From Gemmataceae bacterium (lineage in GTDB: Bacteria > Planctomycetota > Planctomycetia > Gemmatales > Gemmataceae), in the NCBI GenBank assembly GCA_025055795.1, contig JANWVV010000008.1:1-64000 (forward strand): 64,000 bases of DNA, written 5' to 3'. The translations under genes and the position numbers were made by a program. The stretch's first letter is position 1. Every line of letters begins with the position of its first letter. This document shows, piece after piece, positions 3,321 through 20,832 of the stretch. Below the pieces are notes generated by a model. It did no database searches, was not told where the DNA came from, and saw only the letters and a program-made list of their open reading frames with translations.

Positions 3321-4427
3321 CTACTGCGGCAGCGGCCCGGGGACCAACGGCGGGATCGGCAACGGCGACACCTGATCAGCCGCGGGGGAAGGTGACAATG
3401 GCGGTGCAGCGAGGGCCGGGACCGCCGGCGTGGTTGGATGCGGTGAGGGCGTTGACCCCGGAGCCGGAGCGGCCGGTAACGTCTCCCTGGCCGCGGGGGC
3501 TGGGCTTGCAGCGGTTGTGTTGACGGACGGACGAGCTGACGGTGTAATCTCCAGGACCTGCAAGCTGGTCCTTTTGCCGGTGTTGGGACAAGCCGACGAG
3601 GTGGATGGCGTCCCCCCCTCCAGATTGACCGGTCCCCCACCCAGGCGGAACACGCCCATGCCGGGACCGGTCGACTCCGGTGCGCCCGGGCGGGGCGTTG
3701 CTGCAGCGGCATCCGAAAGGGTCCCGCCGGCTGACCCCAGAATCAGACGCGTTTCGGGAGCATAAATCGGGAAGCCGCCTCCTTCCGGTTCGTAACGGAC
3801 ACGCAAACGCACATGGGTGACGTCCGGACGATAAGTCGGCCACGGCAAAAAGATGACATAGCATTCGCCGAAGCGTTCGTCGATTGTGCGTAAGGCTTTG
3901 AGGACGTCCTTTTTGAATTCCCAGCGTTCAGGTGTCAGGGGCGGTACCCCTGGGGGCCGGGGTGTCTCGTCGATCAGATCGACGATCAGTCGGCCGTTGG
4001 CCACAGCCGGTCGCGCCTCGGCGGTGTACAGGAACACTTGACCCGCCAGGCCCGGTTGCAGAGCTCCCTGAGCCGCCGGGTTCGGCAAGTATTCGACTTT
4101 GTTCCGCCAGGCGGTGGCTATCTCGGCCACGGGTCGATTCGTCTCCCTGGACCACAACTTGTTCACAGGGCTGACAGCCGCCCAGGAGCGGAACGGTCCC
4201 GCCGTACCACTGGTCCCCGTGTCCGCGGCAACAGCCGCAGTAGCGATGGATGTCGCTCCCGCCGGTTGGATGGCCGTGGTGGGGGGAGTAGGGGCCGCCA
4301 TCGGTGGAACACTGGACTCCTTGCTCCACCAGGTCTGCATGGTGGAACACCCGCTGGTCAGACTAGTCAGGGCGTAGCCAAGTAAGAGGGGAAGCCACGG
4401 GCGGGTCAATGCCCGAAGGGATTCCAT
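3321..4427 (-). CDS. Lipoprotein of unknown function, last gene after the secretin
   Basis: This 368-residue protein has a hydrophobic N-terminus ending in LTSGC, a good lipobox with Cys near residue 27, so it is probably an envelope lipoprotein. A soluble region (about residues 80-235) contains the conserved-looking segments GQVFLYTAEARPAVANGRL and ERFGECYVIFLPWPTYRPD. The last 130 residues are rich in Pro, Ala, Gly and Ser and look disordered. Its ATG at 4427 lies inside the end of the secretin gene (22-base overlap) and is preceded by AAGGAGGG, so the two are translated from one message. By position it may be a secretin partner or pilotin, but it does not look like a known pilotin. Function is inferred from context only. 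Confidence 0.75.
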   Translation of the reverse strand: MESLRALTRPWLPLLLGYALTSLTSGCSTMQTWWSKESSVPPMAAPTPPTTAIQPAGATSIATAAVAADTGTSGTAGPFRSWAAVSPVNKLWSRETNRPVAEIATAWRNKVEYLPNPAAQGALQPGLAGQVFLYTAEARPAVANGRLIVDLIDETPRPPGVPPLTPERWEFKKDVLKALRTIDERFGECYVIFLPWPTYRPDVTHVRLRVRYEPEGGGFPIYAPETRLILGSAGGTLSDAAAATPRPGAPESTGPGMGVFRLGGGPVNLEGGTPSTSSACPNTGKRTSLQVLEITPSARPSVNTTAASPAPAARETLPAAPAPGSTPSPHPTTPAVPALAAPPLSPSPAADQVSPLPIPPLVPGPLPQ

Positions 4428-7400
4428 GCACGGCCCTCCTTGGTTCCGAACAAGCGCCGGCGTGCCGGTTCCGCAGCGGTGCCGCTGGCCGCCGGATTGG
4501 CCGCTGGCAACGACGCGTCCTGCGTCGTGGCAGGGTAGACCAACTGGTAGGGTTTACCCGGCAGGGAAACAATCGTGCCCGCCGGTGACACTGGTGTGTT
4601 AGTAGACGCTGTTGCTCCCGGAGCAGCAGGCGTTCCCGTGGCCGGCAGCGCGTTCACGACGCCTCCCGGCATCGGCGACCCCGCAAAAGAGCTAGCCGTC
4701 GGCGGCAAAACCGTCCCCGTAGTATCACCAGAGCTTCCCATGGGGACGGCACCAGCCGGCAACGGTGTCGGAGCGGGCAACTGCACCGGCGTACCAGACG
4801 GTGCAGCACCCGTTGGTAACGGCGTGGGAGCGGGCAACTGCGTCGCCGGCAACGGTGTCGGAGCGGGCAACTGGGTCGCCGGTAATGGCGTCGGTGGAGT
4901 AGCAGCCGGAGCGTTCCCCGGTGTCCCCGTTGGCAACGGTGGAATCGTGGGGACGGTGGCCGTGGGCGCGGCTGAGGTCGGCCCTGGCGGTGGCGTGCCC
5001 GCCGGAGGAAGAGGCGTAGGGGACGGCAGCGGCGCTGCCGGGGGTGGGGACGCTGGTGCCGTCGGCGTTGCTGGTGTTGTTACTGGACTGCTGCCAGTGG
5101 GCGGAACTGGTACCACTTTGGCCCCTTCCATCGCCGGCCCGATGATCTCCATGCCGTGCCCATGCAGTCGGGCAATGTCCTGCACGCACCAGTTCATGCG
5201 AGCAGCTTCCTCCGCCAGCAAACGGGCATGATCTGCTTCGCTCCGCACGATGTGCGGCGTCATAATGATCAACACCTCCCGCCGCTGCACCTGATGCTGC
5301 CGGTAGCGGAACAAAGCCCCGACATAGGGAATGTCTTTGAGAAACGGCAAGCCATTCTCCAAACGACTGTCTTGTCGGGTAATCAGACCACCGAGCACCA
5401 CAGTTTCGCCATCAGCGGCCACGACGGTCGTCTGCACCGTCTGGATGTTGAAAGCCGGTGCCAATAGTCCGCCGCCCAGGCTGACCAGGTTGGGACTGAC
5501 GCTGGACACCTGCGGTTCGATCCGCATGACGATCTTGCCATCGGGCGAAATCCGCGGGGTCACTCGCATGACCACACCCACCTGACGATACTGAATCCCT
5601 TGCTGGGTGGTCAGCCCGGTAACGTTGACGTTGGTGGGCACTGGGAAGTCCTGGCCGACCTGAATGAAGCCCACCTGGTTATCCATCACCTGTACTTGCG
5701 GTCGGCTGAGGATTTCGACCCGCCCCTGTGCCTGTAAGGCACGCAACACCACATTGAGGGACTGACTGGAAGCCGTGAAAATGAAGCCCCCAAACGATTG
5801 CGAACCGATCCGGCCAACCCCCAGGTTAGACAAGCCCTGGAATCCGACAATCCCCGGACCGGCTACACCTGTACCCAACGGTGCCGTGGTGTTGAAGTTG
5901 AAACCCGGGTTGGTGGGCCCGCGCTGGAATAACACCGGACTTTGCAACCCTACCTCCAGGCCGAACTCCATCGCATTGTTCAACTGGACGTCGGCAATCA
6001 TGACCTGGATCATGACCTGGGGCGGCTGGGCATCCAACCGTTCGATAATCCGTTTGATGTCCTTGAACAACCGGGGCGTCGCACTGACCAGCAGGGTGTT
6101 GGAGACCGGCTCGGCCACCAAGACCACATCCCGCTGTAAGCGTTGATAGGCGTCCAGGAAGCTCCCGCCCAGCGTCGGCGTGGTCGCCGTCAGGACGTTG
6201 AGTGAATCGACGATGAACTGATTGACGGCGTTCTGGACGTCGGCGGCCGAGGTGTTCTTCAGTTTGAAAACCTCGTAGAAGCGTTCTTCGACCTCGGTAT
6301 CCTCCAAGCGGGCGATCAGGGCCTCGATCAGATCCATATCGGTCCGCGAGCCGGCCACGATCAGCGAGTTGGTGCGGTCGTCCACCGACAAGCGGAGATC
6401 GACCAGCAACGCTCCCTCGGCCACCTCGCCGGTAGGAGTGAGCAAGGGCCGCGGCTGGCCCGCCTGCAAGGCTCCGGCTGCTCCCAGTCCTCCCAGACCA
6501 CCAACACCGCCCACGCCCACCTGCTGCTGCCCCGTGAACAACTGCCGGATCAAATTGGCCATCAACGAGGCCTGGGCCTTCCTCAAATGAAACACCTTGA
6601 CAATGGAACGGGCCGCAGACACCGTATCCAGCTCCTCGATCAACTTTTCAATCAACGTCATGGTCTTGGCCGGAGCCATGACGATGATGGCATTGATCCG
6701 CGTGGAGGGAATCAGGTGCACGTCGGATAGCAGACCGCTTTCCGCCACCAGTTTGCCATCGACACTCGAGTAGAGGCGCAGAGTGTGGCTTTTAGTGACC
6801 AGGCCGCCTCCAATGGCCGTGCCCACAGTAGGTACGACCGTTTGCACCAACGCACCTTCCTGTTGCTGGGCGGCGGCACCACCGGGCTGCAGAGCGGCCA
6901 GGCCGGCACCCGGCTGCTGGGCTCCCAGCCCCCCAAGACCAGCCGCTCCGAGCCCTCCCAAGCCGCCCAACCCTGCTGCACCACCCAGACCACCAGCACC
7001 CAAAGCTCCGCCGGCAGCTCCCAGGCCGCCAAGACCGGCCAGGCCTCCCAGCCCCCCAACGCCGCCCACACCCGTGACCAGCCCCGCCGTACCACCCGCC
7101 GCCGGGGCCACCGGCTGCTGGAGTTGGGCTTGCACTAGCGGGTTGACCACGTTCACGTTCAGCGCATTGCTGATGACCTGGGCAATCTCGGAAGCAATCC
7201 CATTGCGGATGCGAATGACGCGCACCTCCTGGATGGCCTGCGATTCAGAGGTGTCCAGGTCGTGGATCAGTCGCTCAATGTCCTCCAGGTCGGCCCGGGG
7301 CCCCTGGACGTAGACCGTATTGGTCGGAATGTCGAAGGTCACGCGGAACTGGTTCTGGGTAATCGGATCACCGGGAAAACGGGCGTTCCAGAACTGTTGC

Positions 7401-10400
7401 AACTGCAGGGCGACGATCTGGGCCGAGGCCTTTTTGAGCCGAAAGGCACGGGGGAAGACGGCCTCGGCGTTAGGTCGGTCGATGCGCCGGATTTCCCGCA
7501 GGATGTCGTTGAAGCGGGCTTGGGGCGCGGCGACCAGAATGGAGTTGAAGCGGGGCAGGGCCAGGAAATAGATGCCGCGGTTCTGCTGAGCCTGCACCCC
7601 GGCCAGGCCGGGCAGCCCGGCCACGCCCCCGACCCCCGTTACCGGCTGCTGGGCCAGGTAGGTGCCACCGGGACCGGCGATCAGCACCCGGGAAAACAAG
7701 GTGGTCAGCCAATTGGCTACCGCGTTGCAATCCTGATATTCCAGCGGGATGACTTCCAGACGGGGCTGGGCGTCCCGCGAAATTTCCCGCAGGGTTTCAA
7801 TCAGGTCCAGCACCAGTTGCAAATCGGTGGCGTTGGTGGCACGCAAAATGATGGCGTTCAACTCTGGGAGGGGAACAACAGTAACCGGTCCGCGGGGTGC
7901 CAGTTCCCCAGGCAGGGGGGCTGGCGGTACTGGCTGACCCGGTGGTAATGGCGGCTGCATCGGAGGTGGTTGCATCCCCGCGGCAGTGACCACGCCGCTA
8001 GCATTGGCTGGCTGAGAGGAAGGGGTGGTTCCCCCAGCCGGTTGAATAGTGGGCGTGAGGACGGTTTGCTCATTTGTGCTCAGAAGGGAACGACGACGCG
8101 TCGAGGGCGGACCATCCAGAACCGGATCGTAGACCACCGTGTCTGGGGCGGGAGCCATGGACGAATCGGCTGCGGAATTGCGATCCGCTGGGCTGCCTGC
8201 AGGATGGTGAGTGGACGTCGCGGTATGGTAGCGATTGCTGTGGGCCGAAGGGGCCTCCGTGCCCCTGGAGTCAAAATTTCGGGGGCCCTCCGGTGGGTCG
8301 GCTATGGCCTGACGGCCACCGCGTCCACCGCCTCCGCGTCCGCCTCCGCCTCCTAGGCCACCTCCACCCAAGCCACCGCGCCCTCCTCCACCGAAACCGC
8401 CTCCCATGGCCGGACCGCCCAGTCCCCCGCCGAAACCGCCCCCCATGGCCGGGCCACGACCGCCGAAACCACCACCACCAAACGGACCACCACCACCGCC
8501 AAAACCACCACCGCCAAACGGACCACCACCACCAAAGCCCCCAGCACCGAAACCACCCATGCCGAAACCGCCGGGGCCGCGGTTACCAAAGCCGCCCATG
8601 CCGAAGCCCCCCATCCGATTCTGCTGCGGGTTGATCCCCTGCACGGCCAGCACGGCCGCTTGTACCACGTTGGGGTCCAGATTCCCCAGCTTGACCAGAC
8701 GGGCCACGTCGGTGGTACTGGTGGCAGCCCGGTCCAGTTGCTCCACCAACGCCTTGATGTCTTTGAACAATGGCTCCGAGCAGTTGAGAATCAGGCTGTT
8801 GGTCCGGTCATCGACACTTACTGTCAACGCCGGGGGTCGCTGATTCTGCTGGTTAGCCTGCGGCAAGGGGGCGAAGGGGAAGACAATCGGAGCGGCCGGC
8901 TGATTGCCACCGGAACTGAGGGCCGAGCGGTACACGTCGCGGATGATAGCTGCCATCTCGGCCGCGTCCGCATTTTTGACAGGCAATATCCAGGTTTTGA
9001 GGGCCAGGGCATCCTCATCCGGTCCACGGTCGATGTAATTGGCCAGCAAGCTTTCTATAGCCAACAGGTCGGCAGGACTGGCCTTGACCACAACCAGGGC
9101 ATTAGTGCTTTTAATGGCCACGACGCGGATGCGGTTCGGGTTAGTGCCAGCAGGTGCACTATCGCCGCCGCCGCCCCCGCCGAACAGGCCACCGAGCAGG
9201 CCCAACGGTCCTCCCCCGCCCAGCAGTCCGCCCAAGCCTCCACGGCCACCGCCTGGCCCGCCTTGCTGACGCCGCTGCGGACCGTTGAAAATCTCCGTAA
9301 TCTCCGCAGCCGCTTCCTCCGCCGACACGTTCTTCAACTTGATCACTTTGAACAGGTTCTCCGTCGGCGGCGTTCCCACCGTGTAGGTCCGCATCAGACC
9401 GGTCAGGATGTCCAACGCCTCCGTGTCTTCACTCTGGATGATGATGCGGTTGCCCACCACTTGGATGATGACCGGCTTGCCGGTGAGGCCTCCTTTGGGG
9501 GGTTCACCCTTGGCCGTGTCGCCTTTTTTGGGTTCAGTCTGGGCACTGACGTAATGCAGTGGCGGCCCGGATGGTGAATCCGCCATGGGCTTAGGGTCAA
9601 GCGTGGGGTCAGCGTGCGACACTCCTGGCACACCTTCCAGCGGATTGACACCACGGCTGCCACTTTGTCGCTGTCCTGGCGGGTTATTCCCTCCGCCGGG
9701 CGTCGGGGCAGGAGCCGGAGGTGGTGTCCGCGGTTGTGGCGGGGTGGGTGCGTTCGGGTCGACGACAATCGCTGGCTTGCCCAACTGCTGCAGGGTGCGG
9801 GCCAGGTGCTCGGCCAGGATCGAGGCACTGCCATCCGGCAGCGTGAAAGTACGGATGCGTGGATCGAGCTGTCCGCCCGGTCGTTCACCCAGATCAGCCA
9901 GGATTTTCTTGACGTCATTAATTTGGGCGGTTGTACCCTTGACGAGCAGGCCGGGGGTGACTCCGGTGGTGTGGGCCTCCACGGTCGGTCCCCCCGCCGT
10001 GCCGGTGCTCGGATACAACTTGGCGACAGTCGCGGCCGTCGAGGTCGGATCCAGCACACTCAGGGGAATGAACTCCGTGGTGACCGTCGTTTCGCCGCCC
10101 TGGGTCAGGCTACGCATCTTTTCCACGATCGCTAGATGCTCTTCCGGCGTCGCGGACACAATCACCTCGTTAGTCTGGGGTAAGGCAATAATCCGGAGAG
10201 TGGGGTGATCGGCCTGCAGGGCCTGAGCAATAGCCTGGGCCGTACCGGCAGGCACCGGATACTTACGCAGTTCCGGATCGCGGATGATCAGAGGCGGCTG
10301 GAAGGGATCACGGGGCTTGTCGAAATCCTCGATGATCTTTTTGGCCAACTGGATTTTCTCCGGCGGTGCAGTGATCGTCACCGAGTTGGCCTTGGCGTCC

Positions 10401-11500
10401 ACGGCAATCTGCACACTTTTGACCCGTCCGGCGGCTACTGCCGGTCCGGCACGGTCGAAGCCTCCCCCCCGTCGGTCGCCACGGCCATCGAAGCCCCCCC
10501 CACCGCCAAAACGCGGATCGAAACCACCGCCGAAGCGTGGATCGAAGCCCCCCCCACCGCCAAAACGCGGATCGAAAAAGGTCATGGGTGTCGGCTGCGT
10601 ACCGGCAACGGTTACCTGGGCATTGTCGGACAGCAAGGTTTTCAGATGCTCGGCCACTTCCTGGGCCCGTTTGTAGCGGCAAACGTGTGTCAGAATGTCC
10701 CCTTGCGACAGCTCGTTTTCTACCTTCTGCAACGCCTCCAGGATCCGCTGAATGTTGCCGGCGGTATCCAGAATCACTAAAGCGTTCAGCTTGGACAGGC
10801 TGGAGACCATGCCGAAGGGGGAAAGCATCCGCTGGACTTCCGGACCGGTCTCTTCCACTGATAGTGTCTTGAGGGGAACGATGACCTGAACCAGCTCGGT
10901 ACGACCTCGACTGGGCAGTTCGCTCAATTCGATCCGCGGTACCCAGGAAGCGTCGATCTTCTCGTCGGAAGGGTGAATGTAAAAGCTGATCTGCCGGCGG
11001 ATCAGAATGAAGCGTTGCTGGATCAATGCTTCATTGAGCAGATCCACCACTTCGCCGAGGGTGAACTTGCGGTCCTTTGGCGGGAGCAGGGTAACACTAC
11101 CGGTGGGTCGCACCGTCAGGATGGGGGTCAGGCCACTTTCCTTGGCAAACCACTCCAGCACGTCATCCCAATGAGCATTCTTGAAGTTGACGGTGATGGT
11201 CCGTTCAGAGCTGGATTTGTCGGCTGGTTTGTCCGAGGGCTTGTCGGCCGGTTTGTCCACCGGTTTATCCGAAGGAGAGATGGCCGTGCTGCCGCCAGGG
11301 CCGGCGGTTTTGCCACCCAGCTCGCCCGGTTTGACCGGCGGCTGCATCGGGCGGGTGTTACCCCCCGGCGTCTGGGCCATTAGCCCCGGAACGACGACCA
11401 GGCCGCCAAGCATAAGTGCGACCCGCAAACACGTCCATGAAGTCCCTCTCTTTCCCCCCTGAACCAGAGGCGTACCACTGGTTCTCACAAGTGATACCAT
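4406..11500 (-). CDS. gspD: Giant type II secretion secretin (GspD-like) with many N-domains
   Basis: This 2364-residue outer-membrane channel protein is 3-4 times the usual GspD length. A signal sequence (about residues 27-43) is followed by a DKP repeat (75-96), an N0-like domain (100-180), then about thirteen further N1/KH-like repeats. Each has the pattern of a strand such as FKLKNTSAADV, a helix, a TNSLIV-like strand and a closing helix ending in an LD motif. The secretin core is at about 1825-2120 (QPPQVMIQVMIADVQ; VGQDFPVPTNVNV; DGETVVLGGLI; FLKDIPYVGALF). A Pro/Thr-rich tail follows (2130-2364). Gly-rich inserts interrupt several repeats. I chose the ATG at 11500, which has GGAGGGG about 8 bases upstream, over an upstream frame extension of 61 residues lacking a signal peptide. 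It overlaps the downstream lipoprotein gene. Confidence 0.92.
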   Translation of the reverse strand: MVSLVRTSGTPLVQGGKRGTSWTCLRVALMLGGLVVVPGLMAQTPGGNTRPMQPPVKPGELGGKTAGPGGSTAISPSDKPVDKPADKPSDKPADKSSSERTITVNFKNAHWDDVLEWFAKESGLTPILTVRPTGSVTLLPPKDRKFTLGEVVDLLNEALIQQRFILIRRQISFYIHPSDEKIDASWVPRIELSELPSRGRTELVQVIVPLKTLSVEETGPEVQRMLSPFGMVSSLSKLNALVILDTAGNIQRILEALQKVENELSQGDILTHVCRYKRAQEVAEHLKTLLSDNAQVTVAGTQPTPMTFFDPRFGGGGGFDPRFGGGFDPRFGGGGGFDGRGDRRGGGFDRAGPAVAAGRVKSVQIAVDAKANSVTITAPPEKIQLAKKIIEDFDKPRDPFQPPLIIRDPELRKYPVPAGTAQAIAQALQADHPTLRIIALPQTNEVIVSATPEEHLAIVEKMRSLTQGGETTVTTEFIPLSVLDPTSTAATVAKLYPSTGTAGGPTVEAHTTGVTPGLLVKGTTAQINDVKKILADLGERPGGQLDPRIRTFTLPDGSASILAEHLARTLQQLGKPAIVVDPNAPTPPQPRTPPPAPAPTPGGGNNPPGQRQSGSRGVNPLEGVPGVSHADPTLDPKPMADSPSGPPLHYVSAQTEPKKGDTAKGEPPKGGLTGKPVIIQVVGNRIIIQSEDTEALDILTGLMRTYTVGTPPTENLFKVIKLKNVSAEEAAAEITEIFNGPQRRQQGGPGGGRGGLGGLLGGGGPLGLLGGLFGGGGGGDSAPAGTNPNRIRVVAIKSTNALVVVKASPADLLAIESLLANYIDRGPDEDALALKTWILPVKNADAAEMAAIIRDVYRSALSSGGNQPAAPIVFPFAPLPQANQQNQRPPALTVSVDDRTNSLILNCSEPLFKDIKALVEQLDRAATSTTDVARLVKLGNLDPNVVQAAVLAVQGINPQQNRMGGFGMGGFGNRGPGGFGMGGFGAGGFGGGGPFGGGGFGGGGGPFGGGGFGGRGPAMGGGFGGGLGGPAMGGGFGGGGRGGLGGGGLGGGGGRGGGGRGGRQAIADPPEGPRNFDSRGTEAPSAHSNRYHTATSTHHPAGSPADRNSAADSSMAPAPDTVVYDPVLDGPPSTRRRSLLSTNEQTVLTPTIQPAGGTTPSSQPANASGVVTAAGMQPPPMQPPLPPGQPVPPAPLPGELAPRGPVTVVPLPELNAIILRATNATDLQLVLDLIETLREISRDAQPRLEVIPLEYQDCNAVANWLTTLFSRVLIAGPGGTYLAQQPVTGVGGVAGLPGLAGVQAQQNRGIYFLALPRFNSILVAAPQARFNDILREIRRIDRPNAEAVFPRAFRLKKASAQIVALQLQQFWNARFPGDPITQNQFRVTFDIPTNTVYVQGPRADLEDIERLIHDLDTSESQAIQEVRVIRIRNGIASEIAQVISNALNVNVVNPLVQAQLQQPVAPAAGGTAGLVTGVGGVGGLGGLAGLGGLGAAGGALGAGGLGGAAGLGGLGGLGAAGLGGLGAQQPGAGLAALQPGGAAAQQQEGALVQTVVPTVGTAIGGGLVTKSHTLRLYSSVDGKLVAESGLLSDVHLIPSTRINAIIVMAPAKTMTLIEKLIEELDTVSAARSIVKVFHLRKAQASLMANLIRQLFTGQQQVGVGGVGGLGGLGAAGALQAGQPRPLLTPTGEVAEGALLVDLRLSVDDRTNSLIVAGSRTDMDLIEALIARLEDTEVEERFYEVFKLKNTSAADVQNAVNQFIVDSLNVLTATTPTLGGSFLDAYQRLQRDVVLVAEPVSNTLLVSATPRLFKDIKRIIERLDAQPPQVMIQVMIADVQLNNAMEFGLEVGLQSPVLFQRGPTNPGFNFNTTAPLGTGVAGPGIVGFQGLSNLGVGRIGSQSFGGFIFTASSQSLNVVLRALQAQGRVEILSRPQVQVMDNQVGFIQVGQDFPVPTNVNVTGLTTQQGIQYRQVGVVMRVTPRISPDGKIVMRIEPQVSSVSPNLVSLGGGLLAPAFNIQTVQTTVVAADGETVVLGGLITRQDSRLENGLPFLKDIPYVGALFRYRQHQVQRREVLIIMTPHIVRSEADHARLLAEEAARMNWCVQDIARLHGHGMEIIGPAMEGAKVVPVPPTGSSPVTTPATPTAPASPPPAAPLPSPTPLPPAGTPPPGPTSAAPTATVPTIPPLPTGTPGNAPAATPPTPLPATQLPAPTPLPATQLPAPTPLPTGAAPSGTPVQLPAPTPLPAGAVPMGSSGDTTGTVLPPTASSFAGSPMPGGVVNALPATGTPAAPGATASTNTPVSPAGTIVSLPGKPYQLVYPATTQDASLPAANPAASGTAAEPARRRLFGTKEGRAWNPFGH
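4758..4897 (-). repeat. 33-base tandem repeat in the secretin tail
   Basis: Copies of a 33-base unit lie at 4758-4790, 4815-4847 and 4848-4880, with a partial copy to about 4897. On the protein level they give an APTPLPATQLP-like 11-residue repeat in the Pro/Thr-rich C-terminal tail. Copies differ mainly at synonymous positions. Confidence 0.85.
6890..7090 (-). repeat. Gly/Leu/Ala-rich low-complexity insert in the secretin
   Basis: This encodes a run of GGLGGL and GLGAAG-type repeats at about residues 1470-1537, inserted within one of the N-type repeats just upstream of a conserved strand. It is in frame and probably forms a flexible loop. Confidence 0.8.
8320..8590 (-). repeat. Gly/Phe-rich low-complexity insert in the secretin
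   Basis: This encodes GGFGMGG, GGGPFGGGG and PAMGGGFGG-type repeats at about residues 970-1060. The DNA has short imperfect repeats such as CCACCACCACCAAA. It sits between N-type repeats in a long linker that is otherwise charged and Pro-rich. Confidence 0.8.
10440..10580 (-). repeat. FDPRFGGGGG repeat in the secretin
   Basis: Three FDPRFGG(G) units and one FDGRG variant are encoded here (about residues 307-353), inserted in the third N-type repeat. The DNA repeat CCGCCAAAACGCGGATCGAA occurs twice about 50 bases apart. Confidence 0.8.
11211..11275 (-). repeat. 12-base tandem repeat encoding DKPx units
   Basis: Five successive degenerate 12-base units give SDKP-VDKP-ADKP-SDKP-ADK just after the secretin signal peptide (about residues 75-96). 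It is a charged, probably extended linker before the N0-like domain. Confidence 0.8.
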
Positions 11501-12078: not shown

Positions 12079-13761
12079 TCATTGCCGGTCGTCTTCCGGC
12101 AGGCGGCGTAGGACTACGGTTCCAGTGACAGCGATGCGACGGAGAATGTTATCGATTTCTTCCGCTTTCAGTTGCCCTTTTTCCAGGGTGTCCTTGAGCG
12201 ATTTGCCATGCTCCCAGCGATAGTAGACCGGCCGGGGGATCAAGGTAGCGGGATTACCCAGCAAGGCGGCCAGTGGATCAGCCGGTCCTTGGCGAGCGGG
12301 GTTCCCTCGCCCCCCGAAGTTGCCCCGGCCCGCTGCGGCTCCCTCGGTTTTCCCGGTCGGCCGGGCATCGGCCAGGATGATCCCGTATTCGTCGATGGCG
12401 ACGACGCGAAAGGTCCGGGACGTGGCCGAGGTACCCTCATCCGAAATGACCAGCAAGCCGGGAGGATGGGTCCGGCGGTAGTTGGCATCCTCTTTCATGC
12501 TACGGGCGGTCCACGGGATCTCCTTGCGTACAGTGATGGTGGTGCTGGTAGCACTGATGACGTAGCGGAAATTATTGAAGTGATCCTTGATGATGGCCTG
12601 GGCGGTGCCGTCGGAGCCTGTGGAAACAATCGGCAAGGTAATCAGCCAGGCGATGTCCGGCTTGGGTGGTGCCGGTGGCGTAGCCGGAGGCTCGAGGCTG
12701 ACGCGGAAGGAACGCTTCACTTCTACTCCATCGGCGGAAACGGCGGTCACCGTCACGGTGGAGGTGGCCGAGTCGGGCGTGTCGGGCCCGACGGCAGGCA
12801 GGGTTATGGTCCAATTCTCGTTGTCGACTTCCAGGGCCTCTTCCGCAATGAGGGAGCCCGTCACCGTGGCGGAAATTTCCGCATCTTCGGAGCCATCACC
12901 GCTCAGACGTACACGGACCACATATGGCTTGCCATCGCGACGCAGCGTTACGTCCGGCAAGGGGGCCATGGCAAATGGCACCGGTTTTTTCGGCATATAG
13001 GGCGGAAGCACCCCGTAGAAAATGTCGTTTTGCACGATGTAACGATAATCGCGGGGGGGGAAAGCCAGCACGGGTTCGGCACGCGTCCACTGCAGCAAGC
13101 GGGTCTGTTCCGGGTTTTTTTGCAACAGTTGCAGCCCCAGGTTCCCGGCTACGGCCGCCACCACGTTGGTTACGGGGAACAAGGAGGTACGGGATTTGAC
13201 CCCATCCACCGCTATCGCATCGCTGGTGATCGTCACTTTCAGTCCATTGCGGCTCGGATCCCGCTCGTTCCGTTCTATCCTCAAGCTGCTGATCTGATGT
13301 AACAAATCGAGTTGGTAGTAAGCATAAAGGAAGTCGACCAATTGCCACAGATTGACATTTTCGATGTTGATGACGAAGCGATGCTGTTTGTAAGCTGGGC
13401 GCTTGGGAGCTACTTCCGGAATGATCGGCGGACGGGCCTGCACAATTCCAACGGACGAAAACTTGAAGTCGCGGATGCCCGCCTGCAGCAGCAACCGTTC
13501 CAATAGTTGGGCGTACTGGGCTTGAGCAATGGTATCATCCGGGGGCAGACTTTGCCGTTGCACTTCCGCCACGGCGCCGCGGTCCTTGAGCATCTGCATC
13601 AGTTGCAGTTCCAGATCGTCAATGTCCTTTTGCAACTGCTGACGCATGCCATGGGCATTCTGCAACGGCGAATAAACGAACCAATAACCGCCCACGCCGG
13701 CGACCGCTACCACCATCAAGCCGAGCAAAGCCAGAGCGGAACGGAATTCACGCGGTGTCAT
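12079..13761 (-). CDS. PilO/GspM-like inner-membrane assembly protein with long extension
   Basis: This 560-residue protein starts with a short cytoplasmic piece, one membrane helix (about residues 9-29, ALALLGLMVVAVAGVGGYWF) and a coiled coil (about 35-65, LQKDIDDLELQLMQMLKDRG). That is the layout of PilO/GspM platform proteins. A PilO-like ferredoxin-fold region follows to about residue 190 (LLERLLLQAGIRDFKF; FVINIENVNLWQLVDFLYAYYQL). The remaining 350 residues are extra and contain a beta-rich, Ig-like-looking segment (about 270-350). PilO itself is near 200 residues. I chose the ATG at 13761 over a GTG two codons upstream. It lies downstream of the PilM-PilN fusion gene, matching the usual pilM-N-O order. 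Confidence 0.8.
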   Translation of the reverse strand: MTPREFRSALALLGLMVVAVAGVGGYWFVYSPLQNAHGMRQQLQKDIDDLELQLMQMLKDRGAVAEVQRQSLPPDDTIAQAQYAQLLERLLLQAGIRDFKFSSVGIVQARPPIIPEVAPKRPAYKQHRFVINIENVNLWQLVDFLYAYYQLDLLHQISSLRIERNERDPSRNGLKVTITSDAIAVDGVKSRTSLFPVTNVVAAVAGNLGLQLLQKNPEQTRLLQWTRAEPVLAFPPRDYRYIVQNDIFYGVLPPYMPKKPVPFAMAPLPDVTLRRDGKPYVVRVRLSGDGSEDAEISATVTGSLIAEEALEVDNENWTITLPAVGPDTPDSATSTVTVTAVSADGVEVKRSFRVSLEPPATPPAPPKPDIAWLITLPIVSTGSDGTAQAIIKDHFNNFRYVISATSTTITVRKEIPWTARSMKEDANYRRTHPPGLLVISDEGTSATSRTFRVVAIDEYGIILADARPTGKTEGAAAGRGNFGGRGNPARQGPADPLAALLGNPATLIPRPVYYRWEHGKSLKDTLEKGQLKAEEIDNILRRIAVTGTVVLRRLPEDDRQ

Positions 13762-14042
13762 CGTCACGTCGCCTGTATTGCGGGATTACGATGGTTCCTT
13801 TCCAATGCAGTAACACTCTTTACCTTCAGAGTCAGTACCGTAACGGGACCGTGCTCCGCTTTGAGCTTCCAATTTCCAAAGGATTTTCATATCGGCAGGG
13901 CCATGGACTGACAGATCGTGGTCCGGGCTGGCTGCCTTCATGGGATGGCGTGGTCTCCGTTGTTTTTCTCTGCATGCTGCCTTTACCCATTCGGTCAATG
14001 GCTATCTTGTTGTGGCTGCCGGTCCACGGGGGCGGATCCGGA

Positions 14043-15620
14043 TCAGCGGTTTTTGCCTTTGCTGTCCTTAGCGTCCTTCCCGTCCTTGGTGGGAGGAGGG
14101 GGATAGCCCCGCCGGTCCGGAGGGGTGAACTTATCCGGTGCCCGTGTGTACTCCTTGGGCGGACGGGCATTGACGTTGGCCGAGATAGCGTAGTCCGAAT
14201 TGGGAGCGATAGTTGTCTGACGCACGCCAGCGTAGTATTTGGACTCGCCGTAATGCAATTCGCTGTATAGATGGGTGGCTGCCTGATTGTTGGGTGCTTT
14301 GAATTTGAGCTCCACCTTCGCCTGATGGGTCTGCTTGCCCGTTTTGCTGTCTGGGGGGATGGCCGAGGCAAGAAACTGCGTGGCATAGATCCCTTTACCG
14401 TGCGGGAAACGATCGCTCCAGTCGTAGAGCTCGTCGAGCCAATTGACACCGCGGCTTTGCCATTCTCGCACGGCTTTAAGGCGTTTGGCATCCGGTTCCA
14501 GCAGTTTCATTTCGTTTTCCAGATCTTGTTTGCGGCGTTGCAACTGGACCAGGTCCCGTTCGGCCTGGCTTACCTGGAGGTATCCGAACACACCGCCGAT
14601 CAGCAACAGCAGTCCGGCCAGGGTTGCCGCGGCGGCCAGGCGGATTTTGTAGGGGTCCCGCTGGGTTTGCGGCTGCCGCGGGCTGACAAAGTTGATGGCA
14701 TGCTGCCGGGCAGCCTGAGCGGCCAGCATCCCCACCAGGGCCGCACAACGCCCCCGCAAGCTCTGATGAAGCTGGGGGACAAACCCCTGCAACGGATCAT
14801 GGGCATGCACGGCCAGTTGCAAGGCGGCGCGTAAGCGGGGGGCATAACGGCCATCTGCCTCATAAACGTGCAATCCGGCCAGCGGATAGGCGCCGGCTAC
14901 ACTGGCGTACAAGGTCAGATTGCGGCGTACCTCGGCCAGCAACGTGGTCTCAGTCGCCAGGACGGGTGCCGGCAGATCCCGGGTGAACAGAACTTCACCA
15001 CGGCGTACCACCGTGAATTCACCGCCTGCCGGACTAACCAGTAAGGTGGCCACGGCACTATCGCCTGGTTCGGGCAACGGGGCCAGGCCATGGGCATGAG
15101 CCCGGGTCAGTTCGGCGGCCACGGCATAGGGCCGTGGAGTAACCGCTATCAGTTTCAAACCAGCAGCAGTGCAGAATTTCTGGATCGCGTTCAGAACGTC
15201 CCGCCGCAGCACCACGACCATGCTGCGCCGCTCGCCTTCGGGCCCACTACCCTCCAGCGGCGTGTAGTCGATGACTACGTCATCCGGCGAGTCGGATAGC
15301 TCTCGGATCGCCTGGTACTTGACCACATTGGGTTCTTCAGTCGGCGGCACCGCCGGGTAGCGGACTTCCTTGAGTATGACGCGGCCCCGACCGACCACCA
15401 CCAAGGCGGGGGCCGGCGCGATATCCGCCTCCCTAAGCCGCTGCCGCAACTGCTCCCCCAAGGTCTCCGCGTTATCGGGCGTCAATACGGGGGGCGGTAC
15501 ACCATCCCCCTCCAGCCAGGTCAGCACCTGATCGACGCGGATCTGGCCCAGTCGACTGATACTCCCGGCAGCGACCAGCAGGCCATCTGGTGTCAGATCA
15601 ATGACAATGTAACGTGCCAC
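14043..15620 (-). CDS. PilM-PilN (GspL-like) fusion protein
   Basis: This 525-residue protein has two parts. Residues 1 to about 315 look like a PilM/GspL actin-fold domain (MARYIVIDLTPDGLLVAAG; VKYQAIRELSDSPDDVVIDY). Then comes one membrane helix near 330-350 (LAAAATLAGLLLLIGGVFGYL), a coiled coil (QLQRRKQDLENEMKLLEPD), and a periplasmic PilN-like ferredoxin-type domain. This joins the cytoplasmic PilM and membrane PilN parts in one chain, as GspL does. The last 40 residues are rich in Pro, Lys and Asp. The start is a GTG at 15620 with GAGGAG 12 bases upstream. It should link the GspE ATPase to the pseudopilus platform with the PilO-like protein downstream. Confidence 0.85.
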   Translation of the reverse strand: MARYIVIDLTPDGLLVAAGSISRLGQIRVDQVLTWLEGDGVPPPVLTPDNAETLGEQLRQRLREADIAPAPALVVVGRGRVILKEVRYPAVPPTEEPNVVKYQAIRELSDSPDDVVIDYTPLEGSGPEGERRSMVVVLRRDVLNAIQKFCTAAGLKLIAVTPRPYAVAAELTRAHAHGLAPLPEPGDSAVATLLVSPAGGEFTVVRRGEVLFTRDLPAPVLATETTLLAEVRRNLTLYASVAGAYPLAGLHVYEADGRYAPRLRAALQLAVHAHDPLQGFVPQLHQSLRGRCAALVGMLAAQAARQHAINFVSPRQPQTQRDPYKIRLAAAATLAGLLLLIGGVFGYLQVSQAERDLVQLQRRKQDLENEMKLLEPDAKRLKAVREWQSRGVNWLDELYDWSDRFPHGKGIYATQFLASAIPPDSKTGKQTHQAKVELKFKAPNNQAATHLYSELHYGESKYYAGVRQTTIAPNSDYAISANVNARPPKEYTRAPDKFTPPDRRGYPPPPTKDGKDAKDSKGKNR

Positions 15621-16123: not shown

Positions 16124-17773
16124 TCACGGTGTGGTTGTGCCAGCAATGGCCTGCGGCGAGTAGGCCCGCGGGTAATCCAGGTCGCCTAAATCCCGGAAGT
16201 AAAGAATCCGGGGTGCTCCCAAGTTGCTGTCGATGACCGCCTCTACGCGGGCAGTTGGTCCTCCCTGGGCGAAGTATCCCACCACTTCTACGCGATAGAC
16301 CATGCTAGTCCCTGTGACGTACCGCTCGAGACTGCGGAACTTGCTGATGGACAGCCCCCCTTGCGTCAGTAACCAGGCTCCTGTCATCGCCTCCAGGGAA
16401 AAAGGGATGACGCTGTCGCGAGCCGCCAGAATGTTGTCGACCTCGGTTTCCGTCAGGCCGGGCAATCCGAGCAGGGCTTCCCGCGGAGCAGTGTTGACGT
16501 TCAACCGTGGTACCATTTCGACCGCTTCGCGGGTGGAAATTTTATCCAGCAGTATGGGCAGCAACTGAGCTTGCCGAGCTGGATCGTTCAGCGGCGAATA
16601 GTAGACAGTCGCTGTGGGGGGATTAGTGCGGCTATTGCGTTGCAGAACAATGGCGGTATTGACCAGATCGAAAATGGAATTAATGGCGCGACCGCTAGTG
16701 GCGGCCGTGGCCAGACGGGCTTCCACGGCGTTAATCAGCTCGTCCGCTCCGACCGCTACATAAACGGTCTGTTGCATTCCCCCCTTCCCCATCCCACCGC
16801 CACCTTTGGTGCTTGTAGACGACTGAATCTGTCCATCGGCGGTGACCCGCAACAAGTTATTGCTGCCGAACAGCTTGGCTGCCACAATGTAGGCGGCCAT
16901 GTCGGCATCCAACCCGGAATTGAGTAAAGCCTGATAGATACCGACAATGTCATCGCCGTTGATCCAAATGCGGAGGATGCCGGAAGAGTCGACGTTCACT
17001 TCGCGTCCATAGACGGTCAAGTAGTCACTCCAGCCGCGATCCACTATCCCTGCATTTTCATCATCCACACCATTGCGGTTACGATCGGTTCCATACAGTA
17101 GCTGGGGGGTGACCCCCTTGACGAGTAACAATTCGTCCAGGCTATTTAACGGCCCGTTTTTGGCGGAGTAGGGTTGGGCCAGGCTTCGGTAGTATGCACT
17201 TTCGGCCCCGTTTGTCCGGGGGGTGTCGTCGCTGTCTACCCAATCGACGATGGCGTCCGCCACATCAGCGGTCATGTTTGGTAGCTTCATCAGGGCGTTG
17301 TAAAGCGTTTCTCCGCTGGGATCCAAGGCGATCAGGGCATTGATGTTGATTTTGCCACCTTCGTCGCTCATGCCGTAGCGTTGCTGGTACCCCCCGCCAC
17401 TAAGGGGCGTGACGTTGATAATGGAAAAGTAAGCTTGTTTGCTGTTGGGATTAGTCGGATCCTGAGGGACAGGAATGTCCTGGAAATATGAGGGATTGTC
17501 ATAAGGGTTGCCGACATCCAGAGCCAGCAGGTCCGGGTTGGCCAGCAAGGCCGCTGCATAATGCACTCCCGAAACGGCAGCCGCCCGCACTTGGGCATAA
17601 TCGGCACTACGGACGCCTGCCCGCATCTCCGAGACCATTGCATCACTGAAGCGATAGGCTACCAGGGATAGCACCAGAATGACGATCAAAACGGCGATCA
17701 GAACGTATCCGGGGCGTAATCGGTCTGATCGTCTGTTAGGCGTGCTAACTGGAACGGTTTGTGGCGTGGTCAT
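16124..17773 (-). CDS. gspK: Type II secretion minor pseudopilin GspK
   Basis: This 549-residue protein has the GspK layout. The N-terminal processing site and helix RPG-YVLIAVLIVILVLSLVAY has Ala, not Glu, at mature position 5, which is characteristic of GspK at the pseudopilus tip. The family landmark SDEGGKININA is near residue 137, followed by DWVDSDD and a helix-hairpin-helix-like segment, and a second RLNVNTAPREALLGLPGLT near 425. GspK is usually about 330 residues, so this one is long. Its ATG at 17773 overlaps the gspJ stop by 4 bases (ATGA), so it is translated in the same operon. Confidence 0.92.
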   Translation of the reverse strand: MTTPQTVPVSTPNRRSDRLRPGYVLIAVLIVILVLSLVAYRFSDAMVSEMRAGVRSADYAQVRAAAVSGVHYAAALLANPDLLALDVGNPYDNPSYFQDIPVPQDPTNPNSKQAYFSIINVTPLSGGGYQQRYGMSDEGGKININALIALDPSGETLYNALMKLPNMTADVADAIVDWVDSDDTPRTNGAESAYYRSLAQPYSAKNGPLNSLDELLLVKGVTPQLLYGTDRNRNGVDDENAGIVDRGWSDYLTVYGREVNVDSSGILRIWINGDDIVGIYQALLNSGLDADMAAYIVAAKLFGSNNLLRVTADGQIQSSTSTKGGGGMGKGGMQQTVYVAVGADELINAVEARLATAATSGRAINSIFDLVNTAIVLQRNSRTNPPTATVYYSPLNDPARQAQLLPILLDKISTREAVEMVPRLNVNTAPREALLGLPGLTETEVDNILAARDSVIPFSLEAMTGAWLLTQGGLSISKFRSLERYVTGTSMVYRVEVVGYFAQGGPTARVEAVIDSNLGAPRILYFRDLGDLDYPRAYSPQAIAGTTTP

Positions 17774-19191
17774 CTTCCCCCTCCACCCCGCACGCCACTG
17801 GGACCACCGCCCAGGCCGCCACCGCCCAAACCACCACTTCCGGCTCCGCCGCGGCCTCCACCACCGCCAGCTCCGGCTCCGCCACTGCCGCCACCGCCCA
17901 AACCACTACTTCCGGCTCCGCCGCGGCCTCCACCACCGCTACCACCCAAACCCTTGCCAATACCCGCCGAACCCGATTTACCAGTACCTTTGCCCGTACC
18001 GGCCCCTGCACTCCCCTTGCCTGTAGCCCCGCCAGTACTGCCAGAGCTGCTGCCACCGGTCGTGTCGTCCCCACCGGTGGTTCCACCGCTGCCATCATCC
18101 GGCGTCGTGGGAACACCCGAGGGCACCACGGGATCGACCAGAGTGACGGTCGCATTCCCCGGAGCCGTACGAATCGGAATAACCTGACTGATGGTACGAT
18201 AGAGCGGTTCCTGCGGACGCTGCGGATCGGTTAGCTCAAACGTCAGGGTGATACGGATGGCCCGTGGCGGCCCTGCCATGCCGCTGCCGGTAGCACTCAG
18301 ACCAGAGCCATCCCAAGTGGTACTCCAAGATGAACCATCGTAATATTCAAACAATACGTCAACGATGTGCTCAGCAACCAGAGCCGATTCCTCATTACTA
18401 CGATCGGGATAGGTTGAATTACCGATCTGATCAGCGGTTACCCAAGAACGTTCTTCGCGACACAGGCCGCCATTCGCTCCACGCCAATAGACAATCCGGC
18501 GGAGATCGGCGGTCTGTTGACTTTCCACGACGGTCGAGCCAAGCAGAACGCCGGGAGTGCTCAACGCGGTTGGCACCCGACTGGCAAAGATCACCAAACG
18601 AGGCGGGTCATCGTCGTACCCGAAAATGCCTGCATGGAACGGTAACAGGGGACTATTGGCGGCAGAGTTGGTTGTCGTGCCAGAGGTAGTTGGATCGGTG
18701 CTCAGGCTATCGCCCGTAGTGGTAGCATCGGCGTTGTTACTGTTCGTTGCACCGCTGGTCGAGCTGCTGTTGCCAGAAGTACTGTCGCCACTACCACTGG
18801 TGGCACTACTGCCACTGCTGCCGCCCGCGCCACTAGCGGCATTGGCCAGTTTGGGAGGTAGCGGCCCTAGAGACTGGCCCAGATCCAAAGCGATGCGGTT
18901 GAACACCCCGCGGGCCAGATCTTCCGTTTGGGCCATTTCCCGACTGATTTGCGTCTGGGTGAGCGTCATGTAGAAGGCCAGGTACAACCCTCCCAGCAGG
19001 AACGAACCAATCAGGGTGGCCACGAGCAATTCCAGCAGGGTGTATGCAGGTCGCCGGCCGAGGCCGCTGGTGTCAAGGGGAGGCCCGAGCACGGCACTGC
19101 CTTTGGCGTCGCTGCCGGAAACTGCCCGTTGGCGGGTTGGAGCGGCCGCTCCCGACAGCATCGGTTTCAATACTGGTCCGGCGGACCTCAT
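17770..19191 (-). CDS. gspJ: GspJ-like pseudopilin with Gly/Lys-rich tail
   Basis: This 473-residue protein has a prepilin signal near residue 48, RPA-YTLLELLVATLIGSFLLGG, with Glu at mature position 5 and Ala at -1. The mid-section has the GspJ-type strands RRIVYWRGANGGLCREER and VLFEYYDGSSW. It contains a Ser/Gly/Asn/Thr-rich insert (about 125-175) and ends in about 110 residues of Gly, Ser and Lys repeats (GKGTGKSG, GGGGRGGAGS). GspJ normally ends near 200-240 residues. I chose the ATG at 19191, which overlaps the gspI stop (ATGA), over one 22 codons upstream. The long leader before the cleavage site is unusual. Confidence 0.87.
   Translation of the reverse strand: MRSAGPVLKPMLSGAAAPTRQRAVSGSDAKGSAVLGPPLDTSGLGRRPAYTLLELLVATLIGSFLLGGLYLAFYMTLTQTQISREMAQTEDLARGVFNRIALDLGQSLGPLPPKLANAASGAGGSSGSSATSGSGDSTSGNSSSTSGATNSNNADATTTGDSLSTDPTTSGTTTNSAANSPLLPFHAGIFGYDDDPPRLVIFASRVPTALSTPGVLLGSTVVESQQTADLRRIVYWRGANGGLCREERSWVTADQIGNSTYPDRSNEESALVAEHIVDVLFEYYDGSSWSTTWDGSGLSATGSGMAGPPRAIRITLTFELTDPQRPQEPLYRTISQVIPIRTAPGNATVTLVDPVVPSGVPTTPDDGSGGTTGGDDTTGGSSSGSTGGATGKGSAGAGTGKGTGKSGSAGIGKGLGGSGGGGRGGAGSSGLGGGGSGGAGAGGGGGRGGAGSGGLGGGGLGGGPSGVRGGGGR
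17775..18060 (-). repeat. Repeat-rich DNA encoding the GspJ glycine tail
   Basis: A stretch of about 45-50 bases near 17820-17868 is repeated almost exactly near 17895-17943 (shared words CCGCCCAAACCA and TTCCGGCTCCGCCGCGGCC). The two copies encode GGRGGAGSSGLGGGG-like segments, pointing to a tandem duplication within the tail. Confidence 0.85.
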
Positions 19192-19691
19192 GAGCCACCC
19201 CCTGTCGTCCCATTGCTGGACGGATCCGGCCGGGTCGCCTCGCCTGCGGTCCCCCAAAGCGTAGGATCCAGGATGTACTGACTTAATGTAACAGTTACCG
19301 TCTGTCCTTTGACTTCCCGGCTAACACTGACGCTCACCAGATACAGATTCGGGATGTCCGCACTTTGGACGGTTAATGTCCAGTTCCAATTGGCGTCGTC
19401 GCCATCGAAGGTGCCGCTTCCGCTTTCCAAGGGGACGATCCCGCATTCGACCTCGGCCAGTTTGGCCTGAGCCAGGCGTGCTCCCCGGCTCTGATAGCGT
19501 GCTTCCAGCTCTAGATCGGCCCCCATATCGACCAGACGAGCAATCGCTACCAGTGCGGTCAGGAAAATGGCCAGGGCCAACAGTACCTCGATCAGAGACA
19601 GTCCATAGCGGCGAGCGCCTGGACGTTGAGCCGGAACACACGCCTTGGGATAGACTCGGCCGTGGGGCGTGTTCCCCCTATATGCTCTCAT
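19188..19691 (-). CDS. gspI: Type II secretion minor pseudopilin GspI
   Basis: This 167-residue protein has a leader of about 26 residues, then RRYG-LSLIEVLLALAIFLTAL, a standard prepilin motif with Gly at -1 and Glu at mature position 5. Downstream, RGARLAQAKLAEVECGI is the conserved GspI helix region. The ATG at 19691 overlaps the gspH stop (ATGA), which fixes the start; a frame extension upstream reads into gspH. It forms the pseudopilus tip complex with GspJ and GspK encoded next. Confidence 0.88.
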   Translation of the reverse strand: MRAYRGNTPHGRVYPKACVPAQRPGARRYGLSLIEVLLALAIFLTALVAIARLVDMGADLELEARYQSRGARLAQAKLAEVECGIVPLESGSGTFDGDDANWNWTLTVQSADIPNLYLVSVSVSREVKGQTVTVTLSQYILDPTLWGTAGEATRPDPSSNGTTGGGS

Positions 19692-20236
19692 GGCCGCATT
19701 CCCGTTGTCCCTGATCCCGTCGGGGTCCGGATGATCGCCGCTGTGCCGGTTATTCCTCGGATCCGTACATAAATGGGCGCGTTGTTCCCCTCCCGGACCT
19801 CCACCAACACCTGATCTTCCTTGCAAGTACCATCCGGCTTCAGGGTGGCTACGGTAATCCACTCACCGTCCTGAACCTGCTCGCTGTCGCCGGTGGAGAC
19901 CACGGCCAAGGTGGCTTTGTCCAAGCGATCTTCCGTTACGGCCGCGGTAAACACGGGGGGGTCATCGGCACTGTAAGCGGCAAACTCAGGTGTATCCGGG
20001 GCTACGCGCACGCGGGTCCCATCGCTGGAGATGGCCACACGGAACCATTGCCCCCGCTCCATCGCCTTGCTACGGGCATCGGCAATGCGTGCTCGTAACA
20101 AATCGGCCGCTGCCTTCTGACGGGTATCGGCGTAGTTCCCCTCCAACGTCAGGCTTACGGCCAGGCCTACAATCAAAAGCACGGCCAGAACCACCAGAAG
20201 TTCTAGCAGGGTATACGCCTGCCATCGTTGCTGCAT
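19688..20236 (-). CDS. gspH: Type II secretion minor pseudopilin GspH
   Basis: This 182-residue protein has a very short leader and the prepilin motif WQA-YTLLELLVVLAVLLIVGLA. Ala is at -1 and Glu at mature position 5. The following helix (AAADLLRARIADARSKAMERG) and the strand WFRVAISSDG match the GspH pattern. The ATG at 20236 is preceded directly by a purine-rich GGAGGAAGG. Its stop overlaps gspI by 4 bases. A 164-base gap with a hairpin separates it from gspG upstream. Confidence 0.88.
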   Translation of the reverse strand: MQQRWQAYTLLELLVVLAVLLIVGLAVSLTLEGNYADTRQKAAADLLRARIADARSKAMERGQWFRVAISSDGTRVRVAPDTPEFAAYSADDPPVFTAAVTEDRLDKATLAVVSTGDSEQVQDGEWITVATLKPDGTCKEDQVLVEVREGNNAPIYVRIRGITGTAAIIRTPTGSGTTGMRP

Positions 20237-20400: not shown

Positions 20401-20832
20401 TTACCGGAGCGGCCACTGCAACGGCGGCTTGTTAATGTTATGTTGCGGACAGAAGACTACTGGACGCTCTTTATAATTACCTTCTACTTCGTCGGTAGTA
20501 CGCACCAATTGCCAATAGTAGCGTGTACCCCACGGGGAAATCAGCCCTTGAGTTCCCTGTTCCAGATACGGAGCAATCAGAGCCAACCCCTGTTCTCCTT
20601 CCGGCGGCCATTCCCCGTGCTTCAGATAGTATGTCTTCAGTGCCTGCTCGATGGCCCGCATGTCATTTTGCGCCCGACCCTCTTTCGCTTCCTCTAGATA
20701 ACGGAACAACGCAATACTGGCGGCCGAAGCCAAAATCACCAGAATGGCCACGACTATCAGCACTTCCAGCAACGTAAAGGCCTGACGGGGACGCGTCCGC
20801 TGCAACTCCCGCGATACCGCACGCAACACCAT
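20401..20832 (-). CDS. gspG: Type II secretion major pseudopilin GspG
   Basis: This 143-residue protein has the length and pattern of GspG. The leader is followed by RQA-FTLLEVLIVVAILVILA with Ala at -1 and Glu at mature position 5. Next come LEEAKEGRAQNDMRAIEQAL and YYLKHGEWPPEGEQGLALI, the GspG helix and the conserved P-x-x-xQGL region, then SPWGTRYYW. GspG subunits build the pseudopilus shaft. I chose the ATG at 20832 with AGGAG 9 bases upstream over an ATG seven codons earlier. It is first in the minus-strand run and divergent from gspE. Confidence 0.92.
   Translation of the reverse strand: MVLRAVSRELQRTRPRQAFTLLEVLIVVAILVILASAASIALFRYLEEAKEGRAQNDMRAIEQALKTYYLKHGEWPPEGEQGLALIAPYLEQGTQGLISPWGTRYYWQLVRTTDEVEGNYKERPVVFCPQHNINKPPLQWPLR

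Follow-up and report, generated by a model that had tools for sequence, protein, structure and literature searches.

The gene at positions 4406-11500 on the minus strand of the window, as we call the whole stretch of 64,000 nucleotides analysed here, encodes a protein that is close to certain to be a GspD secretin with N0 plus thirteen N-domains. It shares with the ordinary GspD/PulD/XcpQ proteins (TIGR02517; Klebsiella PulD 6hcg, E. coli GspD 5wq7) an N0 at the start, subsequent N-domains, one barrel and a gsp operon, but it has 14 instead of 4 N-domains and 2364 instead of about 650 residues. It differs further in its large Gly/Pro-rich inserts, in a conserved gene next to gspD for a lipoprotein that matches no known family, and in belonging to a system without detectable GspC. 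Multi-ring secretins are already known, Thermus PilQ having six N rings; GspDs with fourteen and with more than forty N-domains are apparently undescribed. No description of them, or of giant planctomycete secretins in general, was found in the papers searched, with most subscription journals and preprints outside the coverage.

Family assignment and domain architecture

The open reading frame extends without internal stops from 11683 to 4406 and most likely starts at 11500, which gives one unbroken frame of exactly the 2364 residues that the original prediction had assigned to a single secretin. The protein scores 472.1 bits with the NCBIfam model of the type II secretin GspD (TIGR02517, cut-off 351.35), whereas it stays below the cut-off of the PilQ model TIGR02515 (246.4 vs 284.35 bits) and of the NCBIfam models of MshL and SctC. 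PF13629 (T2SS-T3SS_pil_N, CpaC/Tad-type) was not reported for it in the Pfam scan. The gene belongs to an operon with gspE, F, G, H, I, J, K, L and M. In place of the usual four N-domains N0-N3, a number that TIGR02517 does not require, there are N0 plus 13; since the cut-off of that model is passed, we treat this departure as variation within the family.

In the same Pfam scan the protein matched Secretin_N with E 1.3e-92 and in 11 stretches, not in three to four; it has a single Secretin core (residues 1921-2086, E 1.1e-47). AlphaFold2 was run on two halves (residues 97-1240 and 1238-2130) with alignments of 25-29 Gemmataceae orthologues. The monomer models contain N0, then thirteen beta-alpha-beta-beta-alpha units and then one barrel, and thus bear out the earlier claim of an N0-like domain and about thirteen further repeats, some fourteen in all, before one core. 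The pLDDT per domain is mostly 70-95; with a pTM of 0.32-0.33 for the halves, the models do not predict the placement of the domains relative to each other. In the models, the linkers between the domains have only about 5-16 residues.

A home-made profile that was built on the C-terminal halves of the protein's own repeats recovered 13 repeats in the first round and 11 in the final strict round. By eye and with this profile, the repeats end at residues 261, 394, 466, 539, 706, 824, 923, 1237, 1341, 1416, 1625, 1733 and 1823. N-domains 1 and 5 were lost in the final round, and domain 5 rests mainly on the AlphaFold2 model.

At both ends the protein resembles known secretins. With phmmer, residues 98-302 match crystal chains of XcpQ N0-N1-N2 (E 2.7e-5) and residues 1699-2121 match N2-N3-barrel of E. 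coli GspD 5wq7 (E 2.8e-41). The ordinary N0-N1 and N2-N3-barrel are thus in place, with about ten additional domains between them. The predicted folds agree with experimental structures: N0 superimposes on N0 of ETEC GspD (4jtm; VIA-align Z 11.3, 2.1 Å over 80 residues), N-domain 3 on pIV 7ofh (2.0 Å over 60 residues) and N-domain 7 on Pseudomonas PilQ 6ve2 (1.8 Å over 61 residues, 31% identity). For the C-terminal half, Foldseek found PulD 6hcg (E 1.9e-27), and GspD structures were matched as well. The AQT at the end of the predicted signal peptide is also present in a sister species (L066). Positions are given in Table 1.

That the gene consists of fused or mis-assembled genes is extremely improbable. 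The assembly is a draft of 267 contigs and the Gly-rich sequence is repetitive, but an equal architecture is found in at least 20 genomes, and the frame has no internal stops. A frameshift that would hide two genes behind the one frame is excluded by at least 20 full-length orthologues with 2.0-2.35 thousand residues, some of them on single-contig chromosomes, which likewise refute a gene fusion.

Table 1 Features of GspD and of the genes of its operon in the window
Feature	Position (strand)	GspD residues	Characteristics and evidence
Lipoprotein gene	3321..4427 (-)		Overlaps gspD stop by 22 nt; lipobox LTSGC
C-terminal helical segment (S-domain position), Pro-rich tail and stop	4406..5230 (-)	2091-2364	Sequence, AlphaFold2
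Secretin barrel core	5231..6022 (-)	1827-2090	Pfam Secretin, phmmer 5wq7, Foldseek 6hcg
N-domain 13 (N3-like, adjoins barrel)	6029..6286 (-)	1739-1824	Profile, phmmer, AlphaFold2
N-domain 12 (N2-like in GspD alignment)	6299..6610 (-)	1631-1734	Insert 1657-1699; best Pfam Secretin_N stretch 1634-1733, AlphaFold2
N-domain 11	6623..7234 (-)	1423-1626	Gly/Leu/Ala-rich insert about 1450-1560; profile, AlphaFold2
N-domain 10	7250..7456 (-)	1349-1417	No insert; profile, AlphaFold2
N-domain 9	7475..7771 (-)	1244-1342	Insert 1271-1308; profile, AlphaFold2
N-domain 8	7781..8713 (-)	930-1240	Largest insert, GGFG-rich 960-1065, then Pro/Ser-rich to 1199; profile, AlphaFold2
N-domain 7	8720..9004 (-)	833-927	Insert 864-887; profile, AlphaFold2, fold match PilQ 6ve2
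N-domain 6	9026..9358 (-)	715-825	Gly-rich insert 743-790; profile, AlphaFold2
N-domain 5	9380..9865 (-)	546-707	Pro-rich insert 588-676; AlphaFold2 fold, profile in first round only; weakest by sequence
N-domain 4	9881..10090 (-)	471-540	Weak profile match (E 0.0065), AlphaFold2 fold
N-domain 3	10100..10279 (-)	408-467	No insert; profile, AlphaFold2, fold match pIV 7ofh
N-domain 2	10316..10699 (-)	268-395	Gly/Phe-rich insert 301-360; profile, AlphaFold2
N-domain 1 (N1-like)	10715..10900 (-)	201-262	Profile in first round, phmmer, AlphaFold2
N0	10958..11212 (-)	97-181	AlphaFold2 pLDDT about 90, fold match 4jtm, phmmer XcpQ
Predicted signal peptide	11375..11500 (-)	1-42	By eye; hydrophobic stretch, then AQT
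GspM-like, long extra C-terminal part	12079..13767 (-)		Weak T2SSM match (E 0.018); conserved position
GspL/PilM-like	14043..15620 (-)		PilM_2 E 1.3e-4; conserved position
GspK	16124..17773 (-)		T2SSK_1st 71.6 bits vs cut-off 26.2; NF037980 E 1.2e-24
GspJ-like minor pseudopilin	17770..19257 (-)		T2SSJ E 1e-4
GspI-like minor pseudopilin	19188..19862 (-)		TIGR01707 E 2.2e-9
GspH-like minor pseudopilin	19688..20236 (-)		TIGR01708 E 2.4e-7
GspG-like major pseudopilin	20401..20853 (-)		TIGR01710 E 2.8e-12
GspE ATPase	21558..23510 (+)		TIGR02533 613.9 bits, under cut-off 630; Pfam T2SSE E 1.7e-134
GspF	23626..24849 (+)		TIGR02120 373 bits; Pfam T2SSF

Glycine- and proline-rich inserts

Four Gly-rich inserts had been proposed at about residues 307-353, 745-778, 970-1060 and 1470-1537; they were located at 301-360, 743-790, 960-1065 and 1461-1540, respectively. 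Further Gly/Pro-rich inserts are found at about 588-676, 864-887, 1080-1199, 1271-1308 and 1657-1699; beyond residue 2130 the tail is Pro-rich. All of these inserts sit between alpha1 and beta2 inside eight of the thirteen domains (2, 5, 6, 7, 8, 9, 11 and 12); domains 1, 3, 4, 10 and 13 have no long insert. Throughout the Gemmataceae the same domains carry the insert in the same loop and the same domains lack it. The pattern is also kept in relatives with a GC3 of 0.55-0.57, where the insert in domain 2 is shorter; therefore, the inserts are not a drift in base composition, and low complexity driven by GC is ruled out as their origin.

According to our own reading of the phmmer alignment, the insert loop is at the position of a loop in the N3 domain of PulD. 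This PulD loop (288-303) is unresolved, and the N3 domain also carries the constriction sites of the channel. This would lead to the assumption that the Gly/Phe- and Gly/Leu-rich loops protrude into the lumen or around it, where they could act as flexible constrictions or seals.

The inserts bear on the question of whether all N-domains stack. It is conceivable that only those next to the barrel, perhaps together with N0-N1, form rings, and that the middle ones are a flexible string of beads that tethers a channel of normal length to the inner membrane. Such a tether would fit the long disordered Gly/Pro-rich inserts in eight of the thirteen domains, the poor order of the N0-N2 regions of ordinary GspDs when GspC is absent, and the existence of homologues with 41 or more N-domains. 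However, the inserts lie within the domains and none between them, and the linkers of only about 5-16 residues together with the in-register conservation of the domains fit a specific packing better than a spacer. We regard the tether as rather unlikely.

The added domains could also have been selected for binding rather than for length, as lateral platforms for substrates, peptidoglycan or partner proteins. Every repeat is indeed conserved in a position-specific manner, and domains with and without insert are fixed in their positions. But no known binding module has been inserted; the domains have plain ring-building folds that differ only in the low-complexity loops, and we consider this explanation very unlikely.

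The gsp operon and its distribution in Planctomycetota

gspD ends a complete operon of the order gspE-F / G-H-I-J-K-L-M-D and is followed by the conserved lipoprotein gene; gspG, H, I, J, K, L and M are upstream of gspD on the same strand, gspE and gspF are divergent. The order F-G-H-I-J-K-L-M-D-lipoprotein recurs on those Gemmataceae contigs that are long enough to show it. The lipoprotein has no match in Pfam or NCBIfam. Orthologues are encoded downstream of gspD in about 30 loci, some of them titled Planctomycetaceae, outside the Gemmataceae, and the protein is probably a pilotin. GspC was searched for with one HMM (PF11356), which gave no match in this 94%-complete genome but did detect the E. 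coli control. It might be that the GspM-like protein contains a divergent form of the HR domain by which GspC binds N0, or that its long C-terminal part stands in for GspC. The PilP model PF04351 gave no match in the genome, nor in its control. The GspJ-like protein has a long Gly-rich C-terminal tail that is found in some relatives, not in all; as the tail is not conserved, it was dismissed as a shared partner of the Gly-rich loops of GspD.

The operon is also informative as to the type of machine. The channel might mainly extrude fibres, like a type IV pilus, or serve in uptake, and would then form the core of crateriform structures in Gemmata and its relatives instead of a protein-secreting type II system. 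In Planctopirus and Gemmata, large crateriform structures give rise to pili-like fibres of 12 nm, and these structures connect the outer and the cytoplasmic membrane; moreover, the GspL-like protein resembles PilM, and the operon encodes GspG-like pilins. On the other hand, the protein is above the cut-off of the GspD model and below that of PilQ, the presence of GspK and of GspH/I/J-like minor pseudopilins marks the system as one for type II secretion, and no evidence ties gspD to crateriform structures. We attach a low probability to a device of this kind.

Besides the giant GspD, the genome encodes three secretins, two of which (L035 and L036) have the Tad/CpaC-type N domain PF13629. The fourth secretin of the genome (L034, contig C43, 2537-7063) is a frame of 1509 residues with a weak core and almost no recognisable N-domains. 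Secretins of about 650 residues in another family (f79) came into question as short GspDs; the one that was scanned is of the CpaC/Tad type.

Comparison with other planctomycete secretins revealed that the multi-N-domain architecture is conserved in the Gemmataceae and that longer homologues exist elsewhere in the phylum. In Gemmataceae genomes with a well-scoring match the gspD frame mostly has 2028-2331 residues, as compared to about 1900 in the sister family, 1200-1500 in other Planctomycetia and about 3270 in family f80; across the phylum, the size ranges clade by clade from about 900 to over 5000 residues. Of 312 comparisons between repeats of the Gemmataceae proteins, 310 pair a repeat with the one in its own position. 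This rules out a recent tandem duplication inside gspD and indicates that the architecture is old and vertically inherited in the family. In Zavarzinella formosa DSM 19928 (L126, 4963-18519), gspM and the lipoprotein gene are about 13 kb apart, and gspD extends over several frames in between; either it is even longer there and contains sequencing errors, or it is broken.

The GspD of the window is not the extreme, and relatives in the phylum exceed forty N-domains. Five families of another order have gspD frames of about 3500-5073 residues (L085-L088, G318, G298, G315, G292). One of these proteins, L085, is encoded on a single-contig chromosome. Its 4634 residues contain one barrel and 41 Pfam Secretin_N stretches, and it is 85% identical over its full length to the proteins of two congeners. 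By eye it has no long Gly-rich inserts, unlike the GspD of the window. In several genera the giant gspDs adjoin gspL in type II secretion operons. The long planctomycete GspDs L085-L090 (3269-5073 residues) have in common with the window protein a single barrel after many N-domains and an adjacent gspL, but they differ in having 25 to 41 or more Pfam N-domains and in falling into separate clades of the secretin-core tree. In this tree all proteins of 1.8-3.0 kilo-residues form one supported clade and the giants occur in two or three places.

A proposed model of an elongated channel

A ring of a PulD-like secretin is 2.5-3 nm high. Based on this height, fourteen rings and the barrel would give a tube of about 45-55 nm. 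In the model that we favour with moderate confidence, extra N-domain rings lengthen the periplasmic tube so that it bridges a wide periplasm. The periplasmic part of GspD would have grown from four N-domains (N0-N3) to fourteen, each of which may, like those of PulD, contribute one ring to an oligomer of roughly 15 subunits. The stacked rings would span the periplasm to a large extent or completely, with N0 near the inner-membrane platform, and would keep the pseudopilus piston and the substrates enclosed. The long tube would then replace most of the gap that is spanned by GspC in ordinary systems, in keeping with the missing PF11356 match.

There is precedent for such an elongation. PulD of Klebsiella, with four N-domains, is 20 nm long, and PilQ of Thermus thermophilus has six N rings (N0-N5) and a length of about 35 nm in a periplasm of roughly 70 nm (PMC5745081; PMC4463427). 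Both PilQ and the GspD of the window are lengthened by extra N-domains, but PilQ has only six rings and 757 residues, is a secretin of type IV pili and DNA uptake and has a divergent N0. A structural match was also found to the secretin DR_0774 of Deinococcus radiodurans (8co1), another multi-N-domain protein, which differs in its about 740 residues and far fewer N-domains.

The ring-building fold in every repeat, the short linkers, the location of N0 and barrel at opposite ends and the precedent of Thermus PilQ lend good support to the original prediction of a very long channel in the periplasm; the greatly multiplied N-domain stack is most simply read as such a channel. The planctomycete periplasm can be greatly enlarged, and the suggested tie between it and the long GspD is plausible. 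However, a wide periplasm alone leaves the size range of GspD across the phylum, from about 900 to over 5000 residues, unexplained. The homologues with 40 or more N-domains would build tubes of more than 100 nm, which strains the model of one ring per domain: either they form very long tubes or the ring-per-domain rule fails.

It is tempting to speculate that Planctomycetota repeatedly expanded the stack of GspD, to 14 rings in Gemmatales and to 40 or more elsewhere, and that the secretin alone is an envelope-spanning tube of tens to more than 100 nm, with Gly/Phe-rich lumen loops as soft gates and GspC dispensable, possibly as the core of crateriform structures. As a whole, this picture is tentative and may well prove wrong; if true, it would describe a self-spanning type II secretion machine. 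The giant GspD is a concrete and testable candidate for moving folded enzymes or fibres across the enlarged planctomycete periplasm and for the make-up of the crateriform connection, and the form with fourteen N-domains is conserved through the Gemmataceae, including the culturable Gemmata sp. and Limnoglobus roseus. With about 4 to over 40 domains, the GspDs of the phylum form a natural series in which the effect of ring number on the length of a secretin channel can be studied. Provided that each domain forms a ring, we estimate that the largest homologues, with about 4600-5000 residues and some 15 copies, would rank among the largest bacterial channel assemblies known.
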